From: Candidatus Dormiibacterota bacterium
GTDB lineage: Bacteria; Vulcanimicrobiota; Vulcanimicrobiia; Vulcanimicrobiales; Vulcanimicrobiaceae
Direction of reading: 5' to 3'
NCBI GenBank assembly: GCA_035532835.1
Contig: DATKQG010000017.1
Span: 1-35,363 of the forward strand
Length of the DNA stretch: 35,363 bases
In this document: piece after piece, positions 7,388 through 35,363 of the stretch
Layout of the letters: every line of letters begins with the position of its first letter
Position numbering within the stretch: position 1 is the first letter of the stretch
Program-made: the position numbers and the translations under genes
The notes under the pieces: generated by a model
Told to the model about the DNA's origin: nothing
Seen by the model: only the letters and a program-made list of their open reading frames with translations
Databases searched by the model: none

Positions 7388-7854
7388 ATAACCAGCGCGT
7401 TCTCGTTATTGTCGCTGTAATAGCCCTTGCGCGTCGTGACGGTCGTAAAGCCGTATTTCCTATAGAGCTGCTGGGCTGCGACGTTGCTCTCGCGAACCTC
7501 CAGCGTCATCCACGCGGCGCCACCCTCGATCGCGCGATCGAGTAAGTACAACAGCATCGCTTCACCGAGTTTACGGCCGCGATAGACCGGATCGACCGCA
7601 ATCGTCGTGACGTGCGAATCCTCGAAGATCACCCAGATGCCGCCGTATGCGACGATTCGGCCGGCGACGCGCCCGACGAAATAATACGCGAGCTTGTTGG
7701 TGTGGAGTTCGTTATAGAACGCGTCGGCCGGCCACGTGGTGCTGAACGAGGCGCGCTCGATCTCCATCACCGCGCCGATATCGGCCAGCGTCATCGGCGC
7801 GATCTCCATGCGCGTGGGCTCGGGCGCGGACGCGCGTTCCAAATCGGCTTTCAC
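7312..7854 (-). CDS. rimI: Ribosomal protein bS18 alanine N-acetyltransferase RimI
   Basis: A 180-residue GNAT acetyltransferase. The RimI pattern is visible: a domain starting near residue 16 (MEIAPMTLADIGAVMEIERASF), the acetyl-CoA pyrophosphate loop VDPVYRGRKLGEAML, then LEVRESNVAAQQLYRKYGF and a terminal RKGYYSDNNENALVMW. RimI acetylates the N-terminal alanine of S18 using acetyl-CoA in the cytoplasm. The GTG start at 7854 overlaps the tsaB stop as GTGA. The gene set tsaE-tsaB-rimI is a frequent bacterial operon and supports the specific RimI call over other GNATs. A second Met at residue 16 could be the true start. Confidence 0.9.
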   Translation of the reverse strand: MKADLERASAPEPTRMEIAPMTLADIGAVMEIERASFSTTWPADAFYNELHTNKLAYYFVGRVAGRIVAYGGIWVIFEDSHVTTIAVDPVYRGRKLGEAMLLYLLDRAIEGGAAWMTLEVRESNVAAQQLYRKYGFTTVTTRKGYYSDNNENALVMWAGNLKGEFFRSRLRALRSRFEQR

Positions 7855-8513: not shown

Positions 8514-8971
8514 GGGCGGTACTCCACGCTGACCGTCCGCGGGCCCGGGCCGGCCCCCTCGATGGCCACGTCGTAGCGGCCGTTGGGCATCAGCTGCGGG
8601 GCCCGGCTCCACCACTCCACCAGCACGATCGAATCGCCGGAGAAGGCGTCCTCGAGCCCGAGCTCGGCGAGTTCCGCCGGGTCTTCGATGCGGTAGAGAT
8701 CCAAATGGTCGATGGCGGGGGCTTGCGAAAGCGGCCCGGCCGGGGGAAGGTAGCGATGCCAGAACGTGAAGGTCGGGCTCGATGTGGGGTCGTCGCCATG
8801 GAGCGCGCGCACCACGGCGCGCACGAAGGTGGTCTTTCCCGCGCCGAGCGGGCCGCTTAGGGCGACGGTATCGCCCGCGCGCAAACGTGCCGCGAAACGC
8901 TGCGCGAAGGCGACGAATGCGGATTCGGTTGGGAAAGTGGCGTGGAAGGGCGCGGCGAAGGTATCGGGCAT
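8510..8971 (-). CDS. tsaE: tRNA t6A37 biosynthesis ATPase TsaE
   Basis: A 153-residue P-loop ATPase that drives turnover of the TsaBD complex in t6A synthesis. The Walker A motif GPLGAGKTTFVRA is at about residue 40, followed by the family's SSPTFTFWHRY and the HLDLYRIEDPAELAELGLEDAF block, then VLVEWWSR. The ATG at 8971 gives a normal-length N-terminus. The same frame runs upstream to 9205, but that extension is Ser/Arg/Gly low-complexity and is antisense to a plausible small gene. It heads the minus-strand series tsaE-tsaB-rimI-yqeK-rsfS. Its start codon lies within the same CATG tetranucleotide as the start of the opposite-strand ORF. Confidence 0.9.
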   Translation of the reverse strand: MPDTFAAPFHATFPTESAFVAFAQRFAARLRAGDTVALSGPLGAGKTTFVRAVVRALHGDDPTSSPTFTFWHRYLPPAGPLSQAPAIDHLDLYRIEDPAELAELGLEDAFSGDSIVLVEWWSRAPQLMPNGRYDVAIEGAGPGPRTVSVEYRP

Positions 8972-9230
8972 GGATTTCGAGGCCTCTTTCGAGGCAAAAC
9001 TCCAAGAGCATCTGCGGGCGGTCGCGGCGGCCGCGAACGATGCCAAGGAGCATATCCGCCTGGGAGTGGGAGCGCAGCGCCCGCAGCCGGAGGAGCGCCG
9101 GGCCGAGCCCGAGTGGGCGCCGCCGCCCCGCCCGCAGGCGGCCGTTTCATTCGACGATCTCTCGGACACCGCCGTCCCGAGGCCGGAGGTTGACGACGAG
9201 GGCATCCCCGTGTGGGAAGACCCGCCGTAA
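8970..9230 (+). CDS. Small acidic hypothetical protein upstream of gyrA
   Basis: An 86-residue frame beginning with ATG at 8970, with GAAGG about 9 bases upstream. The first half is predicted helical and charged (MDFEASFEAKLQEHLRAVAAAANDAKEHIR); the second half is Pro/Glu/Arg-rich and ends DDEGIPVWEDPP. There is no signal peptide or membrane segment. It runs in the direction of gyrA, whose start is 75 bases downstream, so the two may share a transcript. The charge pattern and the non-random acidic C-terminus look like a real, possibly lineage-specific protein. It must share its start region head-to-head with tsaE, which weakens the case. Function unknown. Confidence 0.5.
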   Translation: MDFEASFEAKLQEHLRAVAAAANDAKEHIRLGVGAQRPQPEERRAEPEWAPPPRPQAAVSFDDLSDTAVPRPEVDDEGIPVWEDPP

Positions 9231-12223: not shown

Positions 12224-13561
12224 GTGCAGGCGCTCCGGGAGTTGCCCGCGGTGCACCGGCTTCTCGACGATCCCGCCATCGCGCCCTACGAGGCTCTCGT
12301 AGGGCGCGATGCATTACGCGACGCAATTGAGCGCGAGCTCCGGCGCGCGCGCGGCACCCGCGCCGTGCCCGCATATGCGGAGCTGGTCGCGCAGATCGGC
12401 GTTCGCCTCGAAGCGCTGGCCGCGCAGTCGCTGCTGCCGGTCATCAACGGCACCGGCATCATCCTGCACACGAATCTCGGGCGAGCGCCGCTCGCTCGCG
12501 AGGCGCTCGACGCGGCGCGCGAAATTGGGAGCGGCTATTCGAACCTGGAGTACGACTTGCTCGAAGGGGCGCGCGGTTCGCGTTACGCTCGCGTAACGAG
12601 CCTGCTGCGCGAAGCGAGCGGCGCCGGCGACGCGCTCGTCGTCAATAATTGCGCGGCTGCCGTGCTGCTGATCCTCGATACGTTTGCCAAGGGATTGGAA
12701 GTGATCGTATCGCGCAATCAACTCGTCGAGATCGGCGGCGGCTTTCGGCTCCCCGACGTCTTAGAACGCAGCGGCGCGACGCTGGTCGAGGTCGGCGCGA
12801 CCAACAAGGTGTATCTGCGCGACTTCGAGCGAGCGCTTTCGCCCAAAACGGCGCTGATGATGCGCTCGCATCCCTCCAATTACTCGATCGAAGGCTTCGT
12901 CCACGACGTAGATGCCGCCGAACTTGTGGCGCTGGGCGGACGCGTCGGCGTTCCGATTGTGGAAGATCTCGGCGGCGGCGCGCTCGTAGACCTCGGCGAA
13001 TACGGTTTGCCGCGCGAACGTACGGTGCGCGATGCGGTCGGCGCGGGGGTAGCGTTGGTCGCCTTCTCCGGCGACAAGCTGCTGGGCGGCCCTCAAGCGG
13101 GCATCATTGTCGGCGCCGCTCCGGCGGTTGCGCGTTTACGCAGTAATCCGTTGCTGCGCGCGCTACGCGTCGATAAGCTTACGCTGGCGGCACTCGCGGA
13201 GACCCTGCGGCTTTACCGATCCCGCGAGTCGCGCGAACGCATCCCGTTTTACGCGATGCTGGGCGCGTCGCTGGATTCGCTGCGCGCTCGGGCCGGCGCT
13301 TACGTTGAGAAGATCGCCTCCGCGCAGATCGTGGAGAGCGAAGCCTTCGTGGGCGGCGGAGCGCTCCCGAAGCATGGGTTCCCTTCGATTGCCGTCGCGT
13401 TGCCGGTTGCGTCGCCGCAGAGCGTCGCGGCTCGCCTGCGTGGGGGAAAGCCGGCCGTCGTCGCCCGCGTCGACGAGCGCGGCGTCCTCATCGATCTGCG
13501 AACGATCGCTCCGGACCAAGATGTACTCGCGATCACCGCCCTGGAAGGTGCGTTACGATGA
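12224..13561 (+). CDS. selA: L-seryl-tRNA(Sec) selenium transferase SelA
   Basis: SelA is a PLP enzyme that converts Ser-tRNA(Sec) to Sec-tRNA(Sec) using selenophosphate. At 445 residues it has the expected length. Visible marks are the N-terminal LPAVHRLLDDP helix, the conserved PVINGTGIILHTNLGRAPL, the YSNLEYDLLEGARGSR segment, NNCAAAVLLIL, and the PLP-lysine Lys285 in FSGDKLLGGPQAG. The start is GTG at 12224 with GGAAG just upstream. A striking 16-bp perfect stem-loop occupies codons ~18-30. The 3' end overlaps the aldehyde dehydrogenase start by four bases (ATGA). selB lies 2.8 kb downstream in the same series and a tRNA-Sec fragment is at 33516, so this is a genuine Sec locus. Confidence 0.95.
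   Translation: MQALRELPAVHRLLDDPAIAPYEALVGRDALRDAIERELRRARGTRAVPAYAELVAQIGVRLEALAAQSLLPVINGTGIILHTNLGRAPLAREALDAAREIGSGYSNLEYDLLEGARGSRYARVTSLLREASGAGDALVVNNCAAAVLLILDTFAKGLEVIVSRNQLVEIGGGFRLPDVLERSGATLVEVGATNKVYLRDFERALSPKTALMMRSHPSNYSIEGFVHDVDAAELVALGGRVGVPIVEDLGGGALVDLGEYGLPRERTVRDAVGAGVALVAFSGDKLLGGPQAGIIVGAAPAVARLRSNPLLRALRVDKLTLAALAETLRLYRSRESRERIPFYAMLGASLDSLRARAGAYVEKIASAQIVESEAFVGGGALPKHGFPSIAVALPVASPQSVAARLRGGKPAVVARVDERGVLIDLRTIAPDQDVLAITALEGALR
12277..12311 (+). promoter_or_regulatory. 16-bp perfect stem-loop inside the selA coding start
   Basis: CATCGCGCCCTACGAG (12277-12292) and CTCGTAGGGCGCGATG (12296-12311) are exact complements separated by only three bases (GCT), about 50 bases after the selA start. 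A 16-bp uninterrupted hairpin is far beyond chance for coding DNA. In mRNA the top reads AGGCUCU. Escherichia coli selAB mRNA is known to carry a SelB-binding SECIS-like hairpin near its start, so an analogous feedback role is possible, but this is inference. Confidence 0.5.
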
Positions 13562-14976
13562 AATTTCCCGTGTTTGTTGCCGGCGAAGAACGCGCCGGCG
13601 ACGGAACGATGGCCGTGCACAGCCCCTACGACGGCAAGGCCGTGGGAGAGGTTGCGATTGCCGGTACCCGCGACATGGAGGATGCGATCGCCTCCGCAGT
13701 CCTCGCGTTCAACGATTGCCGGCAGCTTCCGCGCTACGAACGTCAGGCGATTCTGCGGCGTATCGCGGCGGCGCTCCACGAACGCTCGGACGCATTGGTG
13801 GACCTGATGATTGCCGATTCCGGCAAACCGCGGCGCTTCGCCCGCATCGAAGTGGAGCGCGCGATTTCGACCTTCTCGCTCGCCGCGGACGAAGTGACGC
13901 GCGGCGCGGGCGAAGTGCTCCCCTTGGACGTCGCTCCCTCCGGCGTCGGATATACGGCCATCGCTTCCCGTCGCGCCATCGGGCCGATCGGCGCTATCTC
14001 GCCATTCAATTTTCCGCTCAACCTCGCCGCGCATAAAATCGCGCCCGCGATTGCGGTGGGGAACCCGATCGTACTTAAGGTTCCTCCACAGGCACCGTTG
14101 AGCACGCTCGAACTCGCGCGCATCGTCTACGCTTCGGGTTGGCCAAAGATGGGATTTTCGGCCATGCACGCACCGGTCGAAATCGCCCAAGCGCTGGCGA
14201 CCGACGAGCGGATCGCGATGCTCTCGTTTACGGGGTCGAGTGCCGTGGGATGGCACCTCAAGAGCGTCTCCGGGCGCAAGCGCGTGGCGCTGGAACTAGG
14301 CGGCAACGCGGCCGCGATCGTTTGCGACGATGCGGACATCGCGTGGGCGGCACAGCGTTGCGCGCTCGGTGCGTTCGCGCAAGCCGGACAAGTCTGCATC
14401 AAAGTGCAGCGTATCTACGTGTTGCGTAACAAATACGAAGCGTTTCGCGAAGCGCTGCTGCGCGAAACGCGCGCGCTGGCGTTCGGCGATCCGAACGACG
14501 AACGAACGATGGTCGGCCCGGTGATCGACGCGCGCTCGGCCGAACGCATCGCCGATTGGGTCGCACAAGCGATCGCCGGGGGAGCCCGCGTGCTCTGCGG
14601 CAATACGTGGGAGAGACGCGTGATGGCTCCGACGCTCTTGGAGGATACGCAGCCTTCGATGTGCGTCGAATCCGAAGAGGTGTTCGGCCCGGTCGCCACG
14701 CTGCGTCCCGTCGATTCGCTCGACGAAGCGTTCGAACGTACGAACGCCACCCGGTTCGGCTTACAGGCGGGGATCTTTACGCACGACGTGCGTACGATTG
14801 CCGCCGCATTCGAACGCCTCGACGTGGGCGGAGTTATCGCTAACGATTATCCCACGCTGCGCATCGACAATTTTCCGTACGGGGGCGTGAAAGAGAGCGG
14901 TTTTGGGCGCGAGGGCGTTCGCTACGCCATGGACGAGATGACCGAGATGAAGTCGCTGGTCATCCGTTATCGGTGA
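13558..14976 (+). CDS. NAD(P)-dependent aldehyde dehydrogenase
   Basis: A 472-residue aldehyde dehydrogenase superfamily enzyme oxidising an aldehyde to its acid. Features in order: AIGPIGAISPFNFPLNLAAHK (cofactor-binding region with the conserved Asn), LSFTGSSAVGW (the Gly-rich turn), the general base Glu246 in ELGGNAA, the nucleophile Cys280 in AGQVCIKVQ, EEVFGPV, and the ending YGGVKESGFGREG. All catalytic residues are present. The overall form resembles lactaldehyde/succinate-semialdehyde-type members; the substrate cannot be read from sequence. It overlaps selA by four bases and the permease by four bases, so all three are probably co-translated. The catalytic residue is an ordinary Cys codon, so this is not a selenoprotein. 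GGAAGG lies just before the ATG. Confidence 0.93.
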   Translation: MKFPVFVAGEERAGDGTMAVHSPYDGKAVGEVAIAGTRDMEDAIASAVLAFNDCRQLPRYERQAILRRIAAALHERSDALVDLMIADSGKPRRFARIEVERAISTFSLAADEVTRGAGEVLPLDVAPSGVGYTAIASRRAIGPIGAISPFNFPLNLAAHKIAPAIAVGNPIVLKVPPQAPLSTLELARIVYASGWPKMGFSAMHAPVEIAQALATDERIAMLSFTGSSAVGWHLKSVSGRKRVALELGGNAAAIVCDDADIAWAAQRCALGAFAQAGQVCIKVQRIYVLRNKYEAFREALLRETRALAFGDPNDERTMVGPVIDARSAERIADWVAQAIAGGARVLCGNTWERRVMAPTLLEDTQPSMCVESEEVFGPVATLRPVDSLDEAFERTNATRFGLQAGIFTHDVRTIAAAFERLDVGGVIANDYPTLRIDNFPYGGVKESGFGREGVRYAMDEMTEMKSLVIRYR

Positions 14977-16382
14977 AGCACCTCTTCGCACGGCAACCCC
15001 TGGCGTGGACGCAGAGCGATCGCGACGGGCCCACCTTACGCCGTTCGTTGGGGTGGCCGGCGCTTACGGCGATTGGGCTGGGAACGATGCTCGGCGGGAT
15101 TTTTCCCACGATCGGCGCGGGAGCGCATGCGGCGGGTCCGGCCGTCATCCTCGCATACACGCTCTCGGGATTGGTGAGTTTATGCGTAGCGCTCTGCTAT
15201 GCCGAATTCGCTTCGATGGTTCCGGTCGCCGGGAGCGCCTACACGTACGCGTACGCAACCCTCGGTGAAGCGGTTGCGTGGGTCATCGGTTGGGACTTGA
15301 TCTTAGAGTACGGGCTTTCGGTTGCCCCGACGGCATCGTCGTGGTCGGATTACGCGCAGCATCTCCTCGCAAATGTCGGCGTCGTGTTGCCGGCGTGGGC
15401 GCAGAGCGGCGCCATCGGCTCCGGCCGGATCGACGTGATCGCCGCGCTTACCGTGCTTGCGGTGACGCTCTTGGTGGCTATCGGCATTCGCGAATCGGCG
15501 CATTTCAACGGCGCGCTCGTCGTGTTTCAAGTCGTGACGATGGTGGTGTTTCTCGCCGCGGTTCTACCCGCGGTGCATCTTTCCAACCTCCATCCGTTCG
15601 CACCCCACGGATGGCACGGCATCGTCGCCGGAACGGCACTCGTCTTCTACGCATACATCGGCTTCGACACCGTCACGGTTGCGTCGGAGGAGGCGCACGA
15701 TCCGGTCAAACACGTTCCCCTGGGCATCATCCTCGCGTTGGTCATCGGCGGACTGCTCTACGTCGCGATCGCGTTTGCCACCGTCGGCGCCATTTCCGTG
15801 GGAAAGCTGAGCGACGGCGCCGCGATGCTCGATGCGCTCGAGGCCGCAACCAAGAATCCGATCGCATTTTGGCTCGTAGCCTTGGGCGGCATCGCCGGGA
15901 ATACGACCGTCATGCTCACCTCGCTGCTCGGCCAAGTGCGCATTTTCTACGTGATGTCGCGCGACCGGCTGTTGCCGCATGCGGTTGCCGCGATCCATCC
16001 ACGCTTTCGCACGCCGGTCCGGATGACGCTTATCACGGGCGGATTGGTGGCGGTTCTCGCCGCCACGTTGCCGCTGGCGGCACTCCTCGACTTCGTCAAC
16101 ATCGGCACGCTGAGCGCCTTTGCAATCGTCTGTATCGGCGTGTTGGTTCTGCGCATCGTACAGCCCGACGCGCACCGCCCCTTTCGGGCGCCGCTCGTGT
16201 GGGTGTTCACGCTGCTGGGCGCCGCCTCGTGTCTCTATCTGATTACCGGCCTCTCGTTGCCCACGTGGATTCGCTTTCTGGTCTGGTTCGCGGTCGGCAT
16301 CGCGATCTACGCGGTTTACGGATATAGAAAGAGCCATCTGCGCGCCGCCATGACTTCCGCTTCAAAAACGGGAACGAGCTGA
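14973..16382 (+). CDS. APC superfamily amino acid permease
   Basis: A 469-residue inner-membrane transporter with about twelve hydrophobic segments. The first helix region LTAIGLGTMLGGIFPTIGAGA carries the family's unwound Gly-rich substrate site. TLSGLVSLCVALCYAEFASMVPVAGSAYTY is the classic APC signature of helices 2-3, and the middle segment FYAYIGFDTVTVASEEAHDP is typical of the cationic amino acid/YfnA-like group. The substrate is therefore likely an amino acid or polyamine, exact type unknown. The GTG start at 14973 overlaps the aldehyde dehydrogenase stop (GTGA). Only 7 bases separate its stop from selB. The short hydrophilic N-terminus and a basic C-terminal tail are cytoplasmic. Confidence 0.92.
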   Translation: MKHLFARQPLAWTQSDRDGPTLRRSLGWPALTAIGLGTMLGGIFPTIGAGAHAAGPAVILAYTLSGLVSLCVALCYAEFASMVPVAGSAYTYAYATLGEAVAWVIGWDLILEYGLSVAPTASSWSDYAQHLLANVGVVLPAWAQSGAIGSGRIDVIAALTVLAVTLLVAIGIRESAHFNGALVVFQVVTMVVFLAAVLPAVHLSNLHPFAPHGWHGIVAGTALVFYAYIGFDTVTVASEEAHDPVKHVPLGIILALVIGGLLYVAIAFATVGAISVGKLSDGAAMLDALEAATKNPIAFWLVALGGIAGNTTVMLTSLLGQVRIFYVMSRDRLLPHAVAAIHPRFRTPVRMTLITGGLVAVLAATLPLAALLDFVNIGTLSAFAIVCIGVLVLRIVQPDAHRPFRAPLVWVFTLLGAASCLYLITGLSLPTWIRFLVWFAVGIAIYAVYGYRKSHLRAAMTSASKTGTS

Positions 16383-16389
16383 GCGGCAT

Positions 16390-18264
16390 ATGCACATCAT
16401 CGGAACGGCCGGACACGTCGATCACGGCAAATCATCGCTCGTCGCAGCCTTGACCGGCACCAATCCCGATCGCTGGGCCGAAGAGCAGTTGCGCGGTATG
16501 ACGCTCGATCTCGGGTTCGCGCATCTGCAACTACCCGACGGAGTCGAAGCCGGCATCGTCGACGTGCCCGGCCACGAACGCTTTCTGCATAACATGCTGG
16601 CGGGCGCATCGGGCATGGAACTCTTGCTCCTCGTGATTGCAGCCAACGAGGGCGTGCGCCCTCAAACCGTCGAGCACGTGCAGATCCTGCGCTATCTCAA
16701 CGTGCAGCGCACCATCGTCGTATTAACCAAATCCGACTTGCTCTCCGCGGAAGAACTGGATCTCGTCGAGAGCGACGTACGCGCCGCGCTGCGCGACACG
16801 CTGGCCGCCGATGCACGTTACGTCCGCGTCTCGAGCGCGACAGGCGACGGCTTGGATACATTGCGCGCAGCCATTGCAAGCGAACTAGGCCGCATCGCGC
16901 CGCGCAACGCCGACGCGCCGGTATATCTGCCGATCGATCGGGTCTTTACGTTACCGGGCCGCGGGACGATCGTAACCGGGACGTTGATGCAAGGGAGCCT
17001 CGCCCCCGGAGACCTCGTCGCGATCGAACCGCGCGGCAAGCAGATGCGGGTGCGCGGCCTCCACGTATTCGGCCACCCGCGCGAACGCGCCACCGGCGGC
17101 ATGCGCGTCGCACTCAATCTTCCCGGGATCGAAACGGCCGAGCTCGCGCGCGGCGACGTCGTCGCAAGCCCGGATTTTGCCTCGCAATCGAGTTTCTCCG
17201 TTCGTTTTCGTCCGCTGGAATCCGCACTAGCATTGATGCGCCGCCGCATGCCCGTGCGCGCGTACATCGGCGCCGCGGAGATCATGGGAACGCTCGTCTT
17301 CGAAGGCCCGCCGCACGATGCGAGCGAGGTCACCGCGCAACTGCATTTGCGCGAGCCCGCACTCGCCTTTCCCGGCGTGCGCTTCGTCGTGCGCCGCCCG
17401 TCGCCGAAAACGCTGCTCGGCGGCGGCGAAGTGGAGGGTGCCGGCGTCGCCACAACGACCGCCGAGGCTCCGAACGCCATCGAGAATATGTTGTTGACGA
17501 TCTTGCGCGGGCGCGGCTTCGCGCCTTCGGAGATCGGACAGATCGCGTTTTTGGCCAATCTGCGCGAAGAGATCGCCGCCCCGGCGCTGGAAGCGCTCGC
17601 CCAACGCGGCGAACTCTTGCGGATCGAGCGTCCGAACGCGTTCATCGACGCGACGGCCGCCCGCGAGATCTTGAGCCGCGTGCTGGAGCGCCTGGCCAGG
17701 GGAGAAGCGGAGGAGCCGTGGGCGCTCGGCTTAACTTCGCTCGCCCTATCGCGCGAACTCGATATCCCGGAGTCGCTCCTCGTGCGCACGCTGGCAGCGT
17801 TCGCAGAAGACGGACGCATTGCCAAACGCGCCGGATATTACGCGACGATCGGCCACCAGCCGTCGCTCACCGACGCGCAAAAAGCCTTTTTCGACCGCGC
17901 CGTCGCGATCGATCCCGAACGCCCGCTAGTCCCCGGTCCCTACGACACCCTAGCAACGGCCCTAAAATCATCGAGCGTCCCGGGCGTCGCAAAAGCATAC
18001 GAAACGTTGCTCGCGCGAGGTGCGCTCGTCAAGGTCGGCGACGATCTCTACCGAGGCTCGCAAATCGCCACGATCCACCAGCGCATCGCGGCCTGCATCA
18101 ACGAGCACGGCCGCATGACGATGGCAGAATTTCGCGACGCGATCGGAACGTCGCGCAAATATGCGGTCCCGCTACTCGAATGGTTCGACGGCCACGGCAT
18201 TACGATCCGCAACGGCGATTACCGCACGCTACGCCGAAAAGGCGAGACTCCGACGGCCGTATAA
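16390..18264 (+). CDS. selB: Selenocysteine-specific elongation factor SelB
   Basis: SelB is the GTPase that binds Sec-tRNA(Sec) and the SECIS hairpin to recode in-frame UGA. At 624 residues it is full length. The G domain starts at once: GTAGHVDHGKSSLVAALTG (G1), RGMTLDLGFA (switch I), DVPGHERFLHNM (G3) and VVLTKSDLL (G4). Domains II/III follow with DRVFTLPGRGTIVTGTL, and the C-terminal ~270 residues hold the winged-helix repeats that bind SECIS RNA, including TMAEFRDAIGTSRKYAVPLLEWFD, the classic last-domain sequence. It follows the permease by 7 bases and precedes the deaminase by 9. Separation from selA by two metabolic genes is unusual. Confidence 0.95.
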   Translation: MHIIGTAGHVDHGKSSLVAALTGTNPDRWAEEQLRGMTLDLGFAHLQLPDGVEAGIVDVPGHERFLHNMLAGASGMELLLLVIAANEGVRPQTVEHVQILRYLNVQRTIVVLTKSDLLSAEELDLVESDVRAALRDTLAADARYVRVSSATGDGLDTLRAAIASELGRIAPRNADAPVYLPIDRVFTLPGRGTIVTGTLMQGSLAPGDLVAIEPRGKQMRVRGLHVFGHPRERATGGMRVALNLPGIETAELARGDVVASPDFASQSSFSVRFRPLESALALMRRRMPVRAYIGAAEIMGTLVFEGPPHDASEVTAQLHLREPALAFPGVRFVVRRPSPKTLLGGGEVEGAGVATTTAEAPNAIENMLLTILRGRGFAPSEIGQIAFLANLREEIAAPALEALAQRGELLRIERPNAFIDATAAREILSRVLERLARGEAEEPWALGLTSLALSRELDIPESLLVRTLAAFAEDGRIAKRAGYYATIGHQPSLTDAQKAFFDRAVAIDPERPLVPGPYDTLATALKSSSVPGVAKAYETLLARGALVKVGDDLYRGSQIATIHQRIAACINEHGRMTMAEFRDAIGTSRKYAVPLLEWFDGHGITIRNGDYRTLRRKGETPTAV

Positions 18265-20621: not shown

Positions 20622-23618
20622 ATGAACGGTTTACGCGTTGCCCTCCTTGGCATGACCGCGTTGGTTTTGCCGCTGTGTACTCTGACCACCGCCAGCGCGG
20701 ATACGGATTCGGCTGCATTTGCAGCGTTGCACTATCGAGCGATCGGCCCCGCAATTGCGGGCGGTCGCGCGACGGCAATCGCAGGCAGCGACACCGACCC
20801 GATGGTGTATTATGCCGGAGGTGCCGGCGGCGGCGTCTTCAAATCGACGGACGGCGGCGTGTCGTGGCGTCCGGTGTTCGACCGGCAGCCGGTTGCGCCG
20901 ATCGGTGCGATCGCGGTCTCGCCGAAAAATGCGAACGATGTCTGGGTCGGCACGGGTGAGGCCTATCCGCGCAACACGTCCGAGAGCGGTGACGGGCTCT
21001 GGCATTCGACCGACGGCGGAAAGACGTGGCACCATGCGGGCCTCGCGTCGTCGCAACGGATCGCGCGTATCTCGATCGACCCGCGCGACACGCGCACGGT
21101 AGCGGTAGGCGTTCTCGGCAACCCTTTTGCCGACAGCCATTCCCGCGGCGTGTACGTCACGCACGATGCCGGCGCGCATTGGGCGCATACGCTGTATGTC
21201 GGGCCTTCGAGCGGAGCGTCGGATCTCGTGCGCTCGCCGGACCATCCTTCAACGCTTTTTGCCGGTATCTGGCAGTTCCGCCGCTCGTCGTGGCACATGA
21301 GCAGCGGCGGACCGCTCGATGCGATCTATCGCTCGACCGATAACGGTGCGACGTGGCAGAAACTGACCGGCCATGGATTGCCGGGCGGCGTTATCGGCCG
21401 CATCGGCCTCGCTGCAGGCACCTCGAACCGCGTCTATGCGATCATCCAAGCCAAACACGGCGAACTCTGGCGATCGGATAACGAAGGCGTCACCTGGAAG
21501 GCGATGCCGCACAATCCGTTGCTGGGCGCGCGTCCGTTTTACTTCAATCGCATCTACGTCGACCCGGCCGACCCGAACCGGCTCATCAACGTCTCGCTCG
21601 TTCTGTCGATGACGACCGACGGCGGCAAAACGTTCAAGCCCGTTTCGCTCGCGGCCGGCTGGGATTATCATTTCGTGTGGTGGTCGCACGATGGGCGACG
21701 CGTGGCGATCGCGAGCGACGAAGCGGTGGTGATGTCCAACGACAGCATGCAAAGCGTGTGGCAACCGTACGATCTGCCCTTCGCGCAGCCATACCGCATC
21801 GGCTTCGATCACACGTTGCCGTATTACAACGTGTGCTTCGGTTTGCAGGACGATAATACGTGGTGCGGACCGTCGAGTTCCACCAACGGTGTCGGCGTGC
21901 TCAATCGCGATTGGTACACGATTGCACCGGGTGACGGCATGTGGGCCGTATACGACCCGAAAGATCCGAACCTCGTCTGGTCCACTTCGACGGCGTCCGA
22001 TACCGGGCAGGTCTTCTTGAGCGACGTTCGCACGCTGGATGCGCGCGAAGTCTCTCCCGATGCGGAGATCAACGGCGATGAGGCCGCATCGGCTTTGAAG
22101 TATCGCTTCAATTGGGAATCACCGATCACGTTTACCAACGACGGCAAGGCGCTCGTCGGCGGGAACGTCGTCTTCGAGAGCGCCGACCACGGCCAAACCT
22201 GGACGGCGATCAGTCCCGATCTCACGCGCAACGACAAGTCGCACCAGCGGCACACCGGCGGCCCGATAACGCGCGACGAATCGGGTGCCGAAACCTCGGA
22301 TACCATCCTCGACATCGGCGTCTCGAAACTCGCCGACGGACTGATGTGGGTGAGCACCGACGACGGCGTCGTGCAGCTCACGCGCGACGGCGGGGCGCAC
22401 TGGACGAACGTCACGCCCGCGGCGATGCCGTCGTTCGGGCGCGTGCCGACGATCGAGCCGGGCCACTATTCGGCGGGGACGGCCTATATCGCGGTCGATC
22501 GCCATATGAGCGGCGACGACCATCCGTATATTTTCCTCACCGACGATTACGGCAAAACCTGGAAATCGATTGCGGGTAATTTGCCGCCCGACTTCTTCGT
22601 GCGGAGCATACGCGAAGACCCGGTCGACCCGAACCTGCTCTACGCCGGTACGCAGCGCGGCGTGTTCGTTTCATTCGATCGCGGTGGCCATTGGCACTCG
22701 ATGCGGTTGAATATGCCTGCCACCGCCATCTACGACCTCGAGATTCAGCCCGATGCGGACGACTTATTGGTGGCGTCGCACGGTCGCGGTGTCTGGATCT
22801 TCGACGACCTGCGCCCGCTCCAAGAGTGGGCCAAAGCGCGGACGACGGCGATGACGCTCTTCGCTCCTCGCCCAACCTATCTCACCTGGACGGCTTCGCC
22901 GATCCATACGTTCACCAAGCCGCCGCTGCCGAGTAACGATTTCATCGGAACCAATACTCCGTACGGCGCCTTGATCACGTACTATCTCGCGCGCGCTCCC
23001 AAGCACGCGGCCATCGATATCGTCGATGCAAACGGACGCGTCGTGCGTCATCTCACGGGTAAGGACGTACCGATGCACGTCGGGATGAACCGGACGTCGT
23101 GGGACCTGAACGAGGACGCTCCGACCCCGTGGAAGGGCACGTTCCTTGCGAATCAACCCTCCCCCAACGCCGGAGCACGCGTGGTGCCGGGAACGTATAC
23201 CGTGCGCCTCACCGTCGACGGAAAGACGACGACGCAACCGGTCGTCGTGAAGCCCGATCCGCGGACCGGCACGTCGCCGGTTCCCTACCAAGAGCATTAC
23301 GCGGCGGTCTCGCAACTCAATAGCGAGTTGAGCGGGATCGATGCGATGCTCAATTCGATCGATGCGCGCTTAAAGCACGCGCGCGGCCAGGAAGCGGCGG
23401 GGCTCCTCGCGTTCCGCCACCGACTGACGCTCGACCCGAAGAACATCGAGGACCTTGAGGGGCCGGCACAACTGCGCGAGCGCGTTCTGGACTTGCTCTC
23501 GCGCTTGAGCAGTTCGTACCAAGGCCCGAACCAAGCCCAACAGCAAGAAGCGGCATCGATCGCCCGCGCGTACGCGGCGATCGGTGCCGGCTTCAAACGG
23601 ATCGCTGGGGCCCGCTAG
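20622..23618 (+). CDS. Second large secreted BNR-repeat (VPS10/sortilin-like) protein
   Basis: A 998-residue paralogue of the protein at 2055-5093, with the same plan. A signal peptide (MNGLRVALLGMTALVLPLCTLTTASA) is followed by YRAIGPAIAGGRATAIAGS (compare WRSIGPFRGGRALAVTGV in the other). Asp-box/BNR turns come next (STDGGVSW, STDGGKTW, THDAGAHW, STDNGATW, SDNEGVTW, TTDGGKTF, SADHGQTW, TRDGGAHW, TDDYGKTW, SFDRGGHW). The shared HGRGVWIFDDL junction leads to the C-terminal beta-sandwich and a helical tail. The blades form an extracytoplasmic propeller, probably binding protein or glycan. No catalytic residues are evident. It lies head-to-head with the RMD1-like gene and its stop is 10 bases from the convergent yceI gene. 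No clear ribosome-binding site precedes the ATG, so it may be leaderless. Confidence 0.88.
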   Translation: MNGLRVALLGMTALVLPLCTLTTASADTDSAAFAALHYRAIGPAIAGGRATAIAGSDTDPMVYYAGGAGGGVFKSTDGGVSWRPVFDRQPVAPIGAIAVSPKNANDVWVGTGEAYPRNTSESGDGLWHSTDGGKTWHHAGLASSQRIARISIDPRDTRTVAVGVLGNPFADSHSRGVYVTHDAGAHWAHTLYVGPSSGASDLVRSPDHPSTLFAGIWQFRRSSWHMSSGGPLDAIYRSTDNGATWQKLTGHGLPGGVIGRIGLAAGTSNRVYAIIQAKHGELWRSDNEGVTWKAMPHNPLLGARPFYFNRIYVDPADPNRLINVSLVLSMTTDGGKTFKPVSLAAGWDYHFVWWSHDGRRVAIASDEAVVMSNDSMQSVWQPYDLPFAQPYRIGFDHTLPYYNVCFGLQDDNTWCGPSSSTNGVGVLNRDWYTIAPGDGMWAVYDPKDPNLVWSTSTASDTGQVFLSDVRTLDAREVSPDAEINGDEAASALKYRFNWESPITFTNDGKALVGGNVVFESADHGQTWTAISPDLTRNDKSHQRHTGGPITRDESGAETSDTILDIGVSKLADGLMWVSTDDGVVQLTRDGGAHWTNVTPAAMPSFGRVPTIEPGHYSAGTAYIAVDRHMSGDDHPYIFLTDDYGKTWKSIAGNLPPDFFVRSIREDPVDPNLLYAGTQRGVFVSFDRGGHWHSMRLNMPATAIYDLEIQPDADDLLVASHGRGVWIFDDLRPLQEWAKARTTAMTLFAPRPTYLTWTASPIHTFTKPPLPSNDFIGTNTPYGALITYYLARAPKHAAIDIVDANGRVVRHLTGKDVPMHVGMNRTSWDLNEDAPTPWKGTFLANQPSPNAGARVVPGTYTVRLTVDGKTTTQPVVVKPDPRTGTSPVPYQEHYAAVSQLNSELSGIDAMLNSIDARLKHARGQEAAGLLAFRHRLTLDPKNIEDLEGPAQLRERVLDLLSRLSSSYQGPNQAQQQEAASIARAYAAIGAGFKRIAGAR

Positions 23619-29308: not shown

Positions 29309-29486
29309 TAGGCAGCGGAAAAGCCGCGGTAGGGGCTAGATTGGGAGCGTGCAGTTTTTTCGACCTGGCCCGGAGGGCCATTTCAAAACTTGTTCTGTCG
29401 AAAAAATGCTCGAGCTAAAAAATTTCACGGATGAAATTTTTTGGCGTCTCCCGATCTAGCCCCTACCGCGGCTTTTCCGCTGCCTA
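29309..29486. repeat. 178-nt structured palindromic element, copy B
   Basis: Outer arms 29309-29347 and 29448-29486 pair over 39 bp with one mismatch (a G-U in RNA) and include GGGCTAG. In the 100-nt centre, TTTTTTCGAC (29355-29364) pairs with GTCGAAAAAA (29397-29406) and encloses TGGCCC-GGA-GGGCCA (29366-29380). A second hairpin, AAAAAATTTCA-CGGA-TGAAATTTTTT, spans 29417-29442. It fills the gap between the convergent efflux-pump and typA genes. Length, nesting and loop positions match copy A, while most stem sequences differ. Confidence 0.85.
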
Positions 29487-29492
29487 AGCTCG

Positions 29493-31319
29493 CTACGTCG
29501 CCGTCTTTTCGCGGCGGCGCGCCTTGAGGCGCTCGCTCTCATCCAGGATGCGCTTGCGAATGCGGATCGTCTTCGGTGTTACCTCGACGAGCTCGTCATC
29601 TTCGATGAATTCGATCGCGCGTTCGAGCGAGAGTTCCTCGGGCGGCGCGAGACGCACGGTGTCGTCCGAACCGGAGGCGCGCATGTTGGTGAGCTTCTTG
29701 GCTTTGACGACGTTGAGCGCGATGTCCTTATCGTCGTTGGCTTTGCCGACGATCATGCCTTCGTACGCTTCGGCGCCGGGGCCGACGAAGAAGCGGCCGC
29801 GCTGTTCGACGCCGGCGAGTGCGTAGGCGGTAATCGTGCCGGTGTCGCTGGCGACGAGAGCGCCGACGTTGCGGCCGGGGAGTTCGCCTTGCCACTCTTG
29901 GTGATCGTAGTAGGTGTGCGACATCACGGCGGTGCCGCGTGTGAGCGTCAGCAGTTCGCCGCGCAGGCCGAAGATGGCGCGGGTCGGCATCGTGTATTCG
30001 AGGCGACGCGAATCGCCGACGTTGATCATGTTGGACATGATCGCCTTGCGCTTGCCGAGCGCTTCGATAACGGCGCCGGCGTAGTCTTCTTGCACGTCGA
30101 CCACGACGTACTCGACCGGTTCCCAGCGCTTGCCGTCGCGTTCCATGATGATGACTTGCGGTTTGGAGACGGCGATTTCGTAGCCTTCGCGACGCATCGT
30201 TTCGATGAGGATCGAGAGATGGAGTTCGCCGCGGCCGCGCACTTCGAACGTGTCGGCCGATTCGGTATCTTCAACGCGCAGTGCGACGTTGGATTCGAGT
30301 TCGCGCATCAAGCGGTCGCGAATCTGTCGCGAGGTGAGGAACTTGCCCTCTTGGCCTGCGAACGGCGAGTTGTTGACCGAGAAGAACATCGAGACCGTAG
30401 GCTCGTCGACCGCGACGGCGTGAATGCCCTCGGGGGCGCCGGCGTCGGCGATAGTATCGCCGATGTTCAAATCTTCGATGCCTGAGACGCAGATGATATC
30501 GCCGGCGGCGGCTTCCTCGACTTCGATACGTTCGAGCCCTTGGAAGGTGAGCATCTTGGTGAGGCGGAGGCCCATTTCGACTTTGCCGTCGCGTCCGACT
30601 TTGGCGATCGGCGCGTTCACGCGCGTGCTGCCGCGGAAGATGCGCCCGATGCCGATGCGTCCGACGAATTTGTTGTGATCGATTGCGGAGATGAGCAGCT
30701 GGAACGGCCCATCTTCGGCCGGGGCTTCGGGAACGTGATTGGCGATCGTTTCGAAGAGCGGCTCGAGATTCTCGCTCGGATCTTCGAGCGTGCGCTTTGC
30801 GATGCCCATGCGCCCGTTGGTGAAGACGACCGGGAAATCGGCTTGCTCGTCGCTTGCGCCGAGTTCGATAAAGAGGTCGAAGACCTCGTTGACGATCTCG
30901 GTGGGGCGCGCATCCTTGCGGTCGATTTTGTTGATCGCGACCAAGACTTTGAGATCGAGTTCGAGCGCCTTGCGCAGCACGAAGCGCGTCTGCGGCATCA
31001 CGCCTTCGGCCGCATCGACGAGCAGGAACACGCCCTGCACCATCTGCAGCACGCGCTCGACTTCGCCACCGAAATCGGCGTGGCCGGGCGTATCGACGAT
31101 GTTGAACTTGACGTCGCCGTGGCGAATCGCCGTGTTTTTGGCAAGAATGGTAATGCCGCGCTCTTTTTCGAGCGGGTTGGAGTCCATCACGCGGGTCGCC
31201 ACATGCTGGCCCTCGCGGAAGACGCCGCTCTGTTTGAGCATGGCATCGACGAGCGTGGTTTTGCCGTGGTCGACGTGGGCGATGATTGCGACGTTGCGGA
31301 TATCAGGACGGGTCTTCAC
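29493..31319 (-). CDS. typA: Ribosome-associated GTPase TypA/BipA
   Basis: TypA/BipA is an EF-G-like translational GTPase that aids 50S assembly and stress or cold adaptation. With the GTG at 31319 the product is 608 residues, as usual. The G domain begins immediately: [23 protein letters not shown] (G1), [11 protein letters not shown] (switch I), [19 protein letters not shown] (G3) and [13 protein letters not shown] (G4). Further on are the BipA-typical [25 protein letters not shown] and the C-terminal domain ending [18 protein letters not shown]. The frame is open upstream to 31469, but that extension is not conserved. The ribosome-binding site is poor. It converges with the efflux pump gene across structured element B. 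Confidence 0.95.
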
Positions 31320-31372
31320 GAGGGAAGTTCTACCACAGAATACGCCTTTTGCGCTACCGCCTAGCGCGCCCG

Positions 31373-32649
31373 CTAGGCACGCGGGAGCGTAAACCAGAAG
31401 CTCGTGAGCCGCTCCGGCTCGCTTTCGAAGCCGATTTGGCCGCCCATTTTGGTGACGAGTTCCCGGCAAATGTAGAGGCCTAGCCCGATCGAGCCATCGT
31501 CCAAAGCAAGGTGGCCAAACCGAGTAAAGAGCTTGCTTCGGTCCTCTTCGGCGATCCCGGGCCCTTCGTTGACCACCGCGATCGTCACCCGATCCTCGGA
31601 GCCGTGCACGTCGATGTGGATGGGGCTATCGGGATAGCTGTACTTCACGGCGTTTTTGAGCAGGTTGGTGAGAATCTGCACGGTTCGCCCAACGTCCGCC
31701 AACATCGCCGGGACGGGCTCCAGATAGGCCGCATGAAAAGTGCGCTCCGGGTGCTCGCTACGAATCCGCGCCATCGATTCCTCGAGAATCGGGACCGGAT
31801 CGACCGGCTCGACCCGCAGGGAGAGATGCCCCGCCTCCATCCGCGAAAGCAGCAAGAAGTCCTCGAAAATGGACGAGAGCCGCATCGTGGAGCTTGAAAG
31901 CACGCCTCCTGGCGTCGCTCGGCGCCCCGCGATTCAAAGTGCGTTTCGAAGAGGGCGCTCGCGCCCCGGATGGCGGCTAACGGCGAGCGTACTTCGTGCG
32001 AGATCATGCTGAAGAACTCGTTTTGAACGCGGGCGTTCTCTTCGAGGATACGGCGGCGTTCGATCTCGGCCTGATGGGCGCGCGTGTTCGCGAGCGCGAG
32101 CCCGACCAAGTTGACGAAGAGCTGCATTTTGCGCAGGGTCTCGCGAGAGGGCACCTTGCCGTCCGTAGGGGCATCGGCGGAGAGGTAGCCCAGCATCTGG
32201 CCGTCGTGGTCCGGCAGCACCAGAGCAAGCGTGTCGCGTTCGTGCCAGGCCCCGGGGGCACTCCGTAATTCATCGAGCGGACGATATCCCGTATAGATGC
32301 TTCTGGCCCAGAACGTCTCGTGCTCGGCCGGGGTGTAGTAGCAGTTGGGAAGCACTTGGGATTGTGGCTCGAGGAAGCCCAAAATGTCCTCGCGGACGAT
32401 GCGCTCGCCCAGGCGCGTGCGGACGATCTCTTCGGGAAACCCGTGGAGGACGCGGCGAAACAGATCTTCGCCCGGGGCATCGGCGGCGACGATGGTGACG
32501 TAGGTGAACCCGAACAGCTCCGAAACGGCGCGCGCGATCTGCTCGAGCGCCGGACCGATCTCCTGCGCGGCAAGAATGTCGTGCGTGATCGAGAGCAGGC
32601 GTTGGAGCAGCTCGGCCTCGGCCTGGCGGCCCTCTTTCGTCGAAGTCAT
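31373..32649 (-). pseudogene. GAF-domain sensor histidine kinase, split by a frameshift
   Basis: Two adjoining frames make one histidine kinase. From ATG 32649 come a GAF sensor domain (about residues 20-180, with SELFGFTYVTIVAADAPGEDLF), a linker helix, and the HisKA dimerisation domain with the phosphorylated His218 in SMISHEVRSPLAAIRG. That frame then degrades after FESRG. The other frame takes over at VLSSSTMRLSSIFEDFLLLSRMEAGHL and has an intact ATPase domain (NLLKNAVKYS, NEGPGIAEED, GSIGLGLYICREL). Adding one base in the CCCC run at 31925-31928 joins them. All catalytic motifs survive, so this may be a sequencing error, a recent mutation or rare frameshifting. There is no membrane segment and no adjacent response regulator. 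The cytoplasmic GAF ligand is unknown. Confidence 0.8.
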
Positions 32650-32971
32650 CGCCCTATAGGTATCGGCATAATCGCGACGCGAGCGGACGCAAGGCCCCCA
32701 CATCTTCACCGGAAAGGCCGCTGTGCTTGCCCGGACCCTGGGTTCGTGCCCGCGCTCGCGCACGCTATATTTGGAACGCGCGAGCGCCCGATTACGCGCC
32801 GCGTAAATTGCAGCAACGGAGCGTTGCGCCTTCGCGTCTTCTCAGGCCGGCCGCAGCGCTGATTTGGGCGTTCGCATCAAGTCTATTGCAGGATGGCTGT
32901 GAGGCAGCTAACAAGCTATCCTGGGATTTCCAGCCATATCGTTGCGCTACATAGCAGAGGAATTGAGTACG
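32650..32971. other. Intergenic region with 10-bp inverted repeat
   Basis: About 320 bases without a supported gene between the kinase and the DsrE-like gene. GCGCTCGCGC (32752-32761) and GCGCGAGCGC (32778-32787) form a perfect inverted repeat whose loop contains TATATTT, which could be a -10 element for either direction; no convincing -35 is visible. The 3' part (32889-32937) holds interleaved complementary segments described separately. Confidence 0.4.
32889..32937 (+). promoter_or_regulatory. Possible structured leader of the DsrE-like gene
   Basis: CAGGAT (32889-32894) is complementary to ATCCTG (32918-32923), and ATGGCTG (32893-32899) to CAGCCAT (32931-32937). The pairs interleave and share two bases, so they would form competing hairpins. 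This lies 35 bases before the gene's start. Whether it is transcribed and regulatory is unknown. Confidence 0.3.
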
Positions 32972-33463
32972 ATGAACAAACGGATACTTGCGGCCGTGGG
33001 CCTTTTACTAGGGCTCGCATTGGGCATGACGCCCAGCGCTCGCGCCGCCACGCCGACCCTGGCGCCGTTCGATTTCAATAACCCGACGTTTACGCATAGC
33101 CATCCGTTTGCGAAAGCGCATGTCGTCATTCAGGTGAGCCAAGATTCGCCGGCCGTGTGGACGCTGACGCTGAACAATGCGAAGAATCTGCTCGATTATT
33201 TCGGGCCCGAGCAAGTGCAGGTCGTCGTTGTCGCATACGGGCCGGGGCTGAAGATCCTGTTCGACAAGAGCCCCGTCGCGCAGTACATCGCATCGCTCGA
33301 TGCCGAAGGCGTGGAATTCGACGCCTGCCATAACACGTACGAAGCATTCACGAAAGCGCTCGGCAAAGCGCCGGTCCTGGTTCCCCAGGCCGTTATGGTG
33401 CCCGCCGGCGTCGTACGCATCATGCAACTCGAACAGCACGGCTTCGATTACATCCGCCCGTAA
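32972..33463 (+). CDS. Secreted DsrE/DsrF-like protein
   Basis: A 163-residue exported protein: signal peptide MNKRILAAVGLLLGLALGMTPSARA, then a DsrE-like alpha/beta domain (AHVVIQVSQDSP, TLNNAKNLLDYFGPEQVQVVVVAYGPGLKILFD). A single cysteine, Cys119 in FDACHNTYEAF, is at the position used for sulfur relay or persulfide binding in DsrE/TusD proteins. The end VVRIMQLEQHGFDYIRP is typical of the periplasmic subgroup. Its job may be sulfur (or selenium) handling outside the cytoplasm, but that is inference. ATG at 32972 has GAGG about 12 bases upstream and gives a proper signal peptide. It is followed by a 12-bp stem-loop. Confidence 0.82.
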   Translation: MNKRILAAVGLLLGLALGMTPSARAATPTLAPFDFNNPTFTHSHPFAKAHVVIQVSQDSPAVWTLTLNNAKNLLDYFGPEQVQVVVVAYGPGLKILFDKSPVAQYIASLDAEGVEFDACHNTYEAFTKALGKAPVLVPQAVMVPAGVVRIMQLEQHGFDYIRP

Positions 33464-33471
33464 AAACATTC

Positions 33472-33501
33472 AGCAACCCGCGCTTCACGGCGCGGGTTGC
33501 T
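33472..33501 (+). terminator. 12-bp stem-loop after the DsrE-like gene
   Basis: AGCAACCCGCGC (33472-33483) pairs with GCGCGGGTTGCT (33490-33501) over the loop TTCACG. There is no T-run after it on the plus strand; on the minus strand a TTTTT follows after a few bases. It is a plausible 3' end for the DsrE-like mRNA and separates it from the tRNA-Sec fragment 15 bases on. Confidence 0.6.
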
Positions 33502-33515
33502 CCATCACGGCACAT

Positions 33516-33556
33516 GGGAGCGTACGGGTCTGGTGGCTCGCACGGTCTTCAAATCC
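33516..33556 (+). tRNA. selC: 5' half of a selenocysteine tRNA (selC), truncated after the anticodon loop
   Basis: GGGAGCGT (33516-33523) suits the eight-base acceptor strand of tRNA-Sec. CGGGTC-TGGT-GGCTCG (33525-33540) forms the long six-base-pair D-stem with a four-base loop special to this tRNA. Then comes GGT followed by the loop CTTCAAA (33547-33553) with anticodon TCA at 33549-33551. After that the match ends: the anticodon stem does not close, and there is no long variable arm, T-arm (GGTTCGA) or ACGCTCCC acceptor complement in the rest of the window. The break coincides with the fall in GC content. A mobile element inserted at the anticodon loop, or a deletion, would explain it. Confidence 0.72.
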
Positions 33557-33584
33557 CCGACCAGGGATGTTGACGTATCCCATC

Positions 33585-33665
33585 TAGTGCTGGAGGCCCT
33601 TATTTAGTGCTTAAATAGGGGTAGTAATTTCCCGTTCCGTCCCAACCTGTAGTGCCTAAATCGGG
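33585..33665 (+). repeat. Three short direct repeats near the tRNA-Sec junction
   Basis: TAGTGCT (33585-33591), TAGTGCTTAAATAGGGG (33605-33621) and TAGTGCCTAAATCGGG (33650-33665) share TAGTGC(T/C)(T)AAAT. They lie 30-110 bases after the tRNA break, where tyrosine integrases often have arm-type binding sites. A small inverted repeat, GGGAT...ATCCC, sits between the break and the first repeat. The rest of 33557-33774 has no gene I can support. Confidence 0.5.
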
Positions 33666-33774
33666 CTGGTCCGTTAGACAGGCGCTAGACGGAAAACACC
33701 AGGCTTCGCAAAGAAGATCGCCGTCTCAAAATCGCTATCGTTCACTGGTTGCGTTAGCGTACTAGGAGAGAAGG

Positions 33775-34344
33775 ATGGATGCTTTCCAGATTGACGATAT
33801 TGCGCTACGTAAAGTGCTCGTCCAATTTTGTCATATGCACCTGCTTTCTTCCGAAGCCCCGGTCAAGATGCACGCCAGGCCAGCGCCAGAGGTAATGCGT
33901 TTTGTTGTGGGCGCTTTGAAAATACGACCAAATGCTGGTGAAGAGTTTAGTAAGGCGGAGCAGAAGCGCCTGAAGCGCACAATTTATCCCTTGTATCGTC
34001 GAACATGGTTGGACCTCGGTGGAAGTCCTGAGGAGCGTCCGGGGCCGGATCACAGGCGGCGCAGGCGGCACGGAAAATACAAACTAATGTGGCCAAACCA
34101 GCGGAAGCAATCGGGCCATGTTGAGATGACAGATCGTGATGCAACGATCCGAAGCCTTCGTCGGAGAATTACGCTCACGGAACGAAAAATCATGGAATCG
34201 GAAAAGGACCGTTCGACTAACATCAAGTTACTAAAGAGACTAAAAGTCGATCTCGCCAAGATGGTGGGTTCGAGTTCGTCTCAGCCGGAGAAGAAACCAT
34301 TGTCAGTCCAACTTCCTCGGCAAAACTATGGAGAAGACACGTAG
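33775..34344 (+). CDS. Hypothetical basic protein with coiled-coil region
   Basis: A 189-residue protein with an excellent ribosome-binding site (GGAGAGAAGG just before the ATG). It starts MDAFQIDDIALRKVLVQFCHMHLL, has a very basic middle (RRRRRHGKYKLMW), and a heptad-like helix at about residues 120-160 (DATIRSLRRRITLTERKIMESEKD...IKLLKRLKVDLAKM) consistent with a coiled coil, then a Ser/Gln/Pro tail. There is no signal peptide or membrane helix. The basic patch and coiled coil could suit a nucleic-acid-binding dimer, but I recognise no family. It is the first gene inside the low-GC segment. Confidence 0.7.
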   Translation: MDAFQIDDIALRKVLVQFCHMHLLSSEAPVKMHARPAPEVMRFVVGALKIRPNAGEEFSKAEQKRLKRTIYPLYRRTWLDLGGSPEERPGPDHRRRRRHGKYKLMWPNQRKQSGHVEMTDRDATIRSLRRRITLTERKIMESEKDRSTNIKLLKRLKVDLAKMVGSSSSQPEKKPLSVQLPRQNYGEDT

Positions 34345-34435
34345 TCTTCGGGGACTTAGAGGCGCAAAAACGGAAGAAACTCTCAATGAACTTTTGACCC
34401 CGATGTAGCGGTCTGTCGTGGCTGAAATGCTGGCC

Positions 34436-34711
34436 TCATTCGGTAATTAGGTCCACGCCAATTTGTTTGATATCGTATAAACTAATAAGACCACAGCCTC
34501 CACATCCCACCGTAGCGCATGCTAAGCCCACCTGAAAATCCATTTGCGATTGCGCATCTTGGGCGATAAGGCGCACAAGGTACGGAGGAGCTTGACGTTT
34601 TTCGTTCCCGCATCCCGGGCATGGGCCGAGTGCATTGAACTCCCCAAGTCGCGCTACTAATCTGCCATGCTGCTCTTGACTCAATTTCATGCGGATGTTT
34701 TCGATCTTCAT
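34436..34711 (-). CDS. Small zinc-ribbon-like hypothetical protein
   Basis: A 91-residue protein with two cysteine knuckles: PCPGCGNEKRQ near residue 30 and GLACATVGCGGCGLISLYD near residue 70. The CxxC ... CxxC spacing is that of a zinc ribbon, in which four cysteines hold one zinc. The N-terminus is helical and basic (MKIENIRMKLSQEQHGRLVARLG). Proteins of this size and pattern are common in phage and island DNA and usually have no known role. The ribosome-binding site is poor. It is transcribed against the two neighbouring plus-strand genes in the low-GC segment. Confidence 0.65.
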   Translation of the reverse strand: MKIENIRMKLSQEQHGRLVARLGEFNALGPCPGCGNEKRQAPPYLVRLIAQDAQSQMDFQVGLACATVGCGGCGLISLYDIKQIGVDLITE

Positions 34712-34840
34712 CAGATCGGTGCCTGGCGGTAAAACGCGTCACTGGGCTCTTACTCTAGGCTGAGCGCCAATTCTGTTTTAGGAAATAGGCCAAGCATCCT
34801 ATAGCCGTGAACTAGAGCCCGAGGAGCCCCTTCGACAGTT

Positions 34841-34849
34841 TGCTATAAT
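34841..34849 (+). promoter_or_regulatory. Extended -10 promoter upstream of the lipoprotein gene
   Basis: TGCTATAAT is a perfect TGN-TATAAT extended -10 element. No good -35 box lies 17 bases before it, which extended -10 promoters can do without. It would start transcription near 34857, about 70 bases before the lipoprotein ATG. Confidence 0.6.
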
Positions 34850-34924
34850 GGCGGTAGATCGTTGCGGTCGTGGGAGTTGTGGCCCATTACACGCCAACGC
34901 CATTCGTCATTGGGGATATGTGTG

Positions 34925-35363
34925 ATGCGCTTTACCAGGCCCTTATTTATGACTCTACCCTGCCTGATGATCTTCGCTGGTTGCGTTGTCAGTCGTCCCG
35001 AAATCATCGGGCATACAGCAAAGATCACGGGTCTAATTCCGTGTGCCGGAAGCGCCGAAGCCGCCGATGCGATGGATTCAAATTCGTTTGCTGGGGCGGT
35101 TGGAGCAGAGGGACAAGGCGCAGCCGCATCCGCAAACTTTCGCCAGTTAAACGCGAGTGGCGGCATTTGGCTTCAGAATGGCTGGACCGTTCGATTTACA
35201 GGGTCGCAAGATATTGGCTACCTAGATTACACTTCAATCTACGTTGAGGCTGTTCCGAAAGATCAGCAGCAATACCGGGGCGATATGTGCTGGCTGAAGA
35301 CTGACGACATTCAAACGTGGGTCGATCAGGGCGACCTGAAATATCCAATTGGTTCCTCAAGTA
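34925..35363 (+). CDS. Putative lipoprotein, 3' end outside window (partial)
   Basis: An open frame from ATG 34925 to the last base, 146 complete codons with no stop. It starts MRFTRPLFMTLPCLMIFAGC, a short basic N-terminus, a hydrophobic stretch and a lipobox-like FAGC at residue 20, so export and lipid anchoring are likely (Phe at -3 is less usual). The mature part is Ala/Gly/Ser-rich, then has beta-strand-like sequence (GGIWLQNGWTVRFTGS; YLDYTSIYVEAVP) and a second cysteine in GDMCWLKTDDIQTW. GGGG precedes the ATG at a suitable distance. No family recognised. Other frames through here (for example the plus frame from 34870) are less convincing because they lack such features. Confidence 0.65.
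   Translation, partial: MRFTRPLFMTLPCLMIFAGCVVSRPEIIGHTAKITGLIPCAGSAEAADAMDSNSFAGAVGAEGQGAAASANFRQLNASGGIWLQNGWTVRFTGSQDIGYLDYTSIYVEAVPKDQQQYRGDMCWLKTDDIQTWVDQGDLKYPIGSSS

Follow-up and report, generated by a model that had tools for sequence, protein, structure and literature searches.

The 35,363-nt window analysed here is one complete contig (C17) of the draft genome of an uncultured Eremiobacterota bacterium (2.89 Mb in 120 contigs, 96% complete). Besides selA and selB, it carries near its right end a segment of selC, the gene of the selenocysteine tRNA (tRNA-Sec). This segment is the 5′ half of the gene and ends exactly where the anticodon loop ends, 1.8 kb before the contig stops.

The selC 5′ half and its junction

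The sequence of the half, GGGAGCGTACGGGTCTGGTGGCTCGCACGGTCTTCAAA, agrees in all 38 positions with nt 1-38 of the complete selC in G001, a relative of the same genus. The acceptor strand, D arm and loop CTTCAAA of tRNA-Sec reported in the original prediction, which was made from the sequence of the window alone, are therefore present. The flank upstream of the half is collinear with G001, with 93.7% nucleotide identity over 29467-32722 and 93.1% over 32871-33553 (blastn). Both blastn and the junction alignment stop precisely at 33553, the last base of CTTCAAA. Beyond the matching base, G001 continues into a complete selC, whereas the window runs from 33554 into unrelated DNA. G001 thus represents an empty-site relative with a continuous left flank and an uninterrupted target, a comparison which concerns the left flank only, the right flank of the window being unassembled. 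A relative continuing in the same way without any tRNA-Sec had been named as the observation that would argue against a broken selC; G001 instead diverges at 33553 and holds the complete gene.

The break coincides with a fall in G+C content from 63.1% in the native part to 51.5%; no native stretch as long as this goes below 59.5%. The proposed coincidence of break and composition thus holds, although the break lies right after CTTCAAA and not after CTTCAAATCC as first placed. The Rfam tRNA-Sec model does score the half, but with 19.4 bits it stays below the cut-off of 47 because the 3′ half is missing, and ARAGORN found no tRNA in the window. As for the DNA behind the break, no match beyond chance was obtained in 149 genomes of the phylum and none in plasmids, nor did a degenerate pattern of the 38-nt 5′ half detect a free attP form in viral contigs. 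One of its open reading frames (ORFs), of 189 aa, has no relative in the genome-contig or viral-contig collections and no convincing one in the phylum collection, where it gave marginal matches only (E > 0.003). Coordinates are collected in Table 1.

Table 1. Features of the selC locus and of the selenocysteine genes in the window
Feature	Position	Strand	Remarks
Displaced native selC 5′ half	33516..33553	+	Acceptor 5′ strand, D arm, anticodon-stem 5′ strand and loop CTTCAAA; 38/38 identical to G001 selC nt 1-38
Anticodon loop CTTCAAA, putative 7-nt crossover region (att core)	33547..33553	+	Homology with G001 ends exactly there; end point shared with at least 11 further phylum contigs; exact strand-exchange positions putative
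Native gene directly upstream of selC (173 aa)	32942..33463	+	96% identity with its counterpart immediately before the intact selC in G001; indicates the native left flank
Left end of the inserted element, up to contig end (right end unassembled)	33554..35363		51.5% G+C against 63.1% in native DNA; no match in G001 or elsewhere in its own genome
189-aa ORF within the element, without known relatives	33775..34344	+	No Pfam match
Open ORF of at least 166 aa, cut by the contig end	34862..35363	+	From ORF listing; hydrophobic, lipoprotein-like N terminus; no Pfam match
selA, intact	12224..13561	+	TIGR00474, 499 bits (cut-off 267.9)
selB, intact	16390..18264	+	TIGR00475, 320.9 bits (cut-off 242.25)

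Halves and complete copies of selC in the phylum

Most relatives have an intact selC. When the junction sequence was used to query the 149 phylum genomes, several of them gave two matches to the 5′ part of the gene. A recurring layout was observed in the latter loci, in which a 5′ half cut at CTTCAAA is followed by other DNA and then by an intact selC on the same strand. In five genomes the two copies lie on the same contig, the half always upstream of the intact gene, at distances of 16.3 kb (L162), 3.15 kb (L163), 4.07 kb (L164), 1.35 kb (L165) and 1.7 kb (L166); in genomes G125 and G111 they lie on separate contigs. Altogether this break recurs at an identical base on at least 11 further contigs, belonging to about ten other genomes, with differing sequences behind it. 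This agrees with the original prediction that an element had inserted into the anticodon loop, but not with its expectation of a lone 3′ half at the far end of the element. The relatives have there a complete selC, which we read as an element-borne 5′ half joined to the native 3′ half.

Comparison of the two copies delimits the repeat. In seven half/full pairs, nt 1-38 match at 35-38 of 38 positions (28 of 38 in L163, an indel having put the ungapped comparison out of register). By contrast, nt 39-76 match at 5-11 of 38 and the upstream flanks (55-60 nt) at 11-22 of 60, which is near random. The direct repeat is thus confined to the 5′ half, and the sequences upstream of the half and of the full copy differ. 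The flanks can also be followed between loci: the left flank of L162 matches that of L166, whose further-upstream flank matches that of the intact selC in the congeners L178 and L179. On the right side, the flank of L162 corresponds to DNA that follows selC in L178.

The 16.3-kb interval of L162 encodes a tyrosine integrase (PF00589, 2.7e-26), an HTH_17 protein and type I restriction-modification genes. Integrase remnants precede the full selC of L164 by 83 nt and the half of L173 by 92 nt, as expected if islands carry an integrase next to their own 5′ half; L173 would then suggest serial insertion. Intact integrases located just behind the selC 3′ end, the common layout, are present in L166, L174, L175, L198 and L200, so that the gene seems to serve as a general hot spot in this phylum. 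In two further loci, L181 and L183, direct repeats of 14-15 nt of the selC 3′ end lie about 2.2 kb downstream (offsets +2339 and +2212 from selC); these are probably ordinary 3′-end insertions at selC in other genomes. The 1.7-kb interval of L166 contains a 115-aa ORF and an overlapping downstream ORF (L166:6715-7390), a pair resembling HigB/HigA toxin-antitoxin genes by eye; the 115-aa ORF has no Pfam match at 1e-5.

In G059, G068 and G070 the half lies about 30-350 nt from a contig end, as compared with 1.8 kb in the window, indicating that the selC spot often breaks assemblies. G059 contains two different selC 5′ halves (L169 and L170), each on a contig ending about 30 nt behind the loop and sharing the first bases TGCGTGAAC. 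Caution is thus advisable with draft genomes, in which selC may look broken when the rebuilt copy is merely unassembled.

Proposed integration into selC and its alternatives

We propose, with a probability of about 0.85, that an island of the tyrosine-recombinase type, or the remnant of one, integrated into selC by crossover within the 7-nt anticodon loop and rebuilt the gene at its far end; for the island of the window, we infer both the recombinase class and the crossover point. In such a reaction, the tyrosine recombinase would exchange strands inside the loop and the island would bring its own copy of the selC 5′ half. The native 5′ half, together with the native flank before it, would remain at the left end as a dead fragment. 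At the far right end, the island's own 5′ half would meet the native 3′ half and restore a complete selC, to be read from upstream sequence brought by the island. This layout would be the mirror image of the usual arrangement with 3′ fragments. The break, the empty left site of G001 and the succession of half, island and full copy in the relatives are direct observations, and they support insertion in the loop well.

Several observations weigh against this interpretation. The search of the 120-contig assembly with the Sec model, a sequence pattern and BLAST gave neither an intact selC nor a 3′ half, which extends to the whole assembled genome the absence first noted for the window. Neither the T-arm/acceptor pattern nor BLAST with the 3′ half and flank of G001 returned anything convincing, and the best other match to the Sec model (46 bits) is a tRNA-Ser, the remaining strong matches in the assembled genome being ordinary tRNAs. 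Among the complete intervals of relatives, a full integrase gene is found in L162 only, those of L163, L165 and L166 having none, and no integrase is visible within the 1.8 kb of the element. The half and the full copy of L164 are unlike each other, the full one resembling the congener G009; serial insertions would have blurred which copy is native. The other integrases of the window genome are poor candidates as owners of the element, three of them adjoining other tRNA genes and the fourth being probably a Xer recombinase. The first three are tyrosine integrase genes beside tRNA-Leu (GAG), tRNA-Glu (CTC) and tRNA-Pro (GGG) on contigs C87, C23 and C56 (L137:8988-9074, L138:6689-6764 and L139:6144-6221, respectively), so that this genome carries several tRNA-linked islands.

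The missing 3′ half prompts another reading, in which selC was truly destroyed by insertion or replacement without repair and the strain no longer makes selenocysteine. The assembly is 96% complete, and lnt, the downstream neighbour of selC in G001, has in the window genome a homologue of only 29% identity. The native downstream flank of G001 is likewise not found by DNA comparison in that genome. With 3′ half, flank and neighbour all missing, it is the whole far side of the break, beyond the tRNA half, that is absent from the assembly; most likely the far end of the island is unassembled. Moreover, selA and selB, described as intact in the original prediction, score above the cut-offs of their families, and two genes retain UGA at the selenocysteine position in frames that are otherwise open. 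In SelD the in-frame UGA aligns with the catalytic Cys17 of E. coli SelD, and in formate dehydrogenase the single in-frame UGA occupies the position held by selenocysteine in solved homologues; hairpins are predicted after both codons. A functional selC is therefore expected and we infer that an intact copy exists in this cell. Most other genomes with halves also possess one. Destruction of selC is thus quite unlikely, and the suggestion that the strain has a disabled selenocysteine system or needs an unusual split tRNA is not supported by these data.

A split tRNA-Sec joined in trans, or a selC with a long intron, appears scarcely credible. The G+C-rich stretch TCCCCGACCAGGG behind the half loosely resembles the leader of archaeal split tRNA genes; against this, the assembled genome holds no gene for a 3′ half and no bacterial machinery of the kind is known. 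No group I intron or other Rfam family matches the junction and no 3′ exon lies in the window. Relatives with intact selC behind islands speak against both versions, and their half/full layout makes a split-tRNA mechanism unnecessary, pointing to an uncommon but known event. A chimeric join in a metagenome bin could be suspected of a 120-contig draft whose contig stops 1.8 kb after the join. However, a random join would not fall just where the anticodon loop ends, nor be repeated at the identical base on at least 11 contigs of other genomes that continue differently, and we consider this very unlikely. Integration could also be tRNA-dependent, the element sharing only a short core with its target, rebuilding nothing and carrying a complete selC elsewhere. 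Mycobacteriophages are known to integrate in this way: their attP has only about 10 bp in common with attB, and an entire tRNA comes with the phage (PMC10865867). In the window genome the far end is unseen. In the relatives, though, the interval closes with the intact gene and all 38 nt of the 5′ half are repeated, as reconstruction predicts, so that this mode is quite unlikely here.

Returning to integration with reconstruction of the gene, a broader proposal may be ventured tentatively, as somewhat short of an even chance: selC of Eremiobacterota would be a recurrent target of bacterial islands using the tRNA 5′ half as attachment site, each insertion swapping the promoter of the sole tRNA-Sec and placing selenoprotein synthesis of the host under an island promoter.

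Elsewhere in the window, genes for an aldehyde dehydrogenase and an amino-acid permease lie between selA and selB (12224-18264). A TsaB-like protein (7851-9053, minus strand) has an N-terminal extension of about 180 aa matching no Pfam family. Two proteins of about 1000 aa match repeat families, one the glycosylhydrolase/Ycf48-like family (2055-5093, minus strand) and the other the sortilin/VPS10 and BNR families (20622-23618, plus strand).

Relation to known integrative elements

The canonical selC islands of enterobacteria insert at the 3′ end of the gene, leaving 3′ fragments behind. The loci described here share with them selC as an integration hot spot, but the crossover would take place in the anticodon loop and it is a 5′ fragment that is left.

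The closest counterparts are the 5′-fragment islands of the Islander database, which are a minority: 3760 islands have 3′ fragments and 159 have 5′ fragments (159/3919), and 2083 sites are anticodon-centred (PMC4383910). Islander defines an island as flanked by an intact tRNA gene and a terminal fragment in the same orientation, a 5′ fragment standing upstream (PMC4383910). L162-L166 are flanked in this way, and the window displays the fragment and the left end only. An integrase, also considered by Islander, is present in L162 and as a remnant in L164, and is missing from the 1.8 kb visible in the window. The Islander islands and those of the relatives have in common the tRNA target, the anticodon-loop class of att site and a half-tRNA that precedes the intact gene in the same orientation, with the island between them. 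The present cases differ in their target, selC, in their phylum, in the apparent diversity of the islands involved and in an integrase that is mostly missing or decayed.

In archaea, pTN3-like integrative elements use a tRNA gene's 5′ half as attB (Cossu 2017, as reviewed in PMC8371274). The corresponding 5′-half repeat is found in seven relatives, a single copy being assembled for the window. As with those elements, the rebuilt tRNA would have to be transcribed from element-borne sequence; in contrast to them, the host is a bacterium and the integrase is not always beside the rebuilt gene. Mycobacterial phages with tRNA-dependent lysogeny also integrate inside a tRNA gene, but bring a whole tRNA and leave the target unrepaired, whereas the relatives studied here appear to rebuild it (PMC10865867).

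While almost all islands in tRNA genes keep the host promoter and replace the 3′ part, several in this phylum appear to replace the 5′ part together with the upstream region. Since every selenoprotein needs the tRNA concerned, they would offer a natural test of island takeover of host tRNA expression. We therefore regard these loci not as a new kind of tRNA but as a new example of the rare 5′-fragment islands, concerning a special tRNA and seemingly recurrent in a single phylum. The window would belong to these islands by analogy, through its left end and its relatives.
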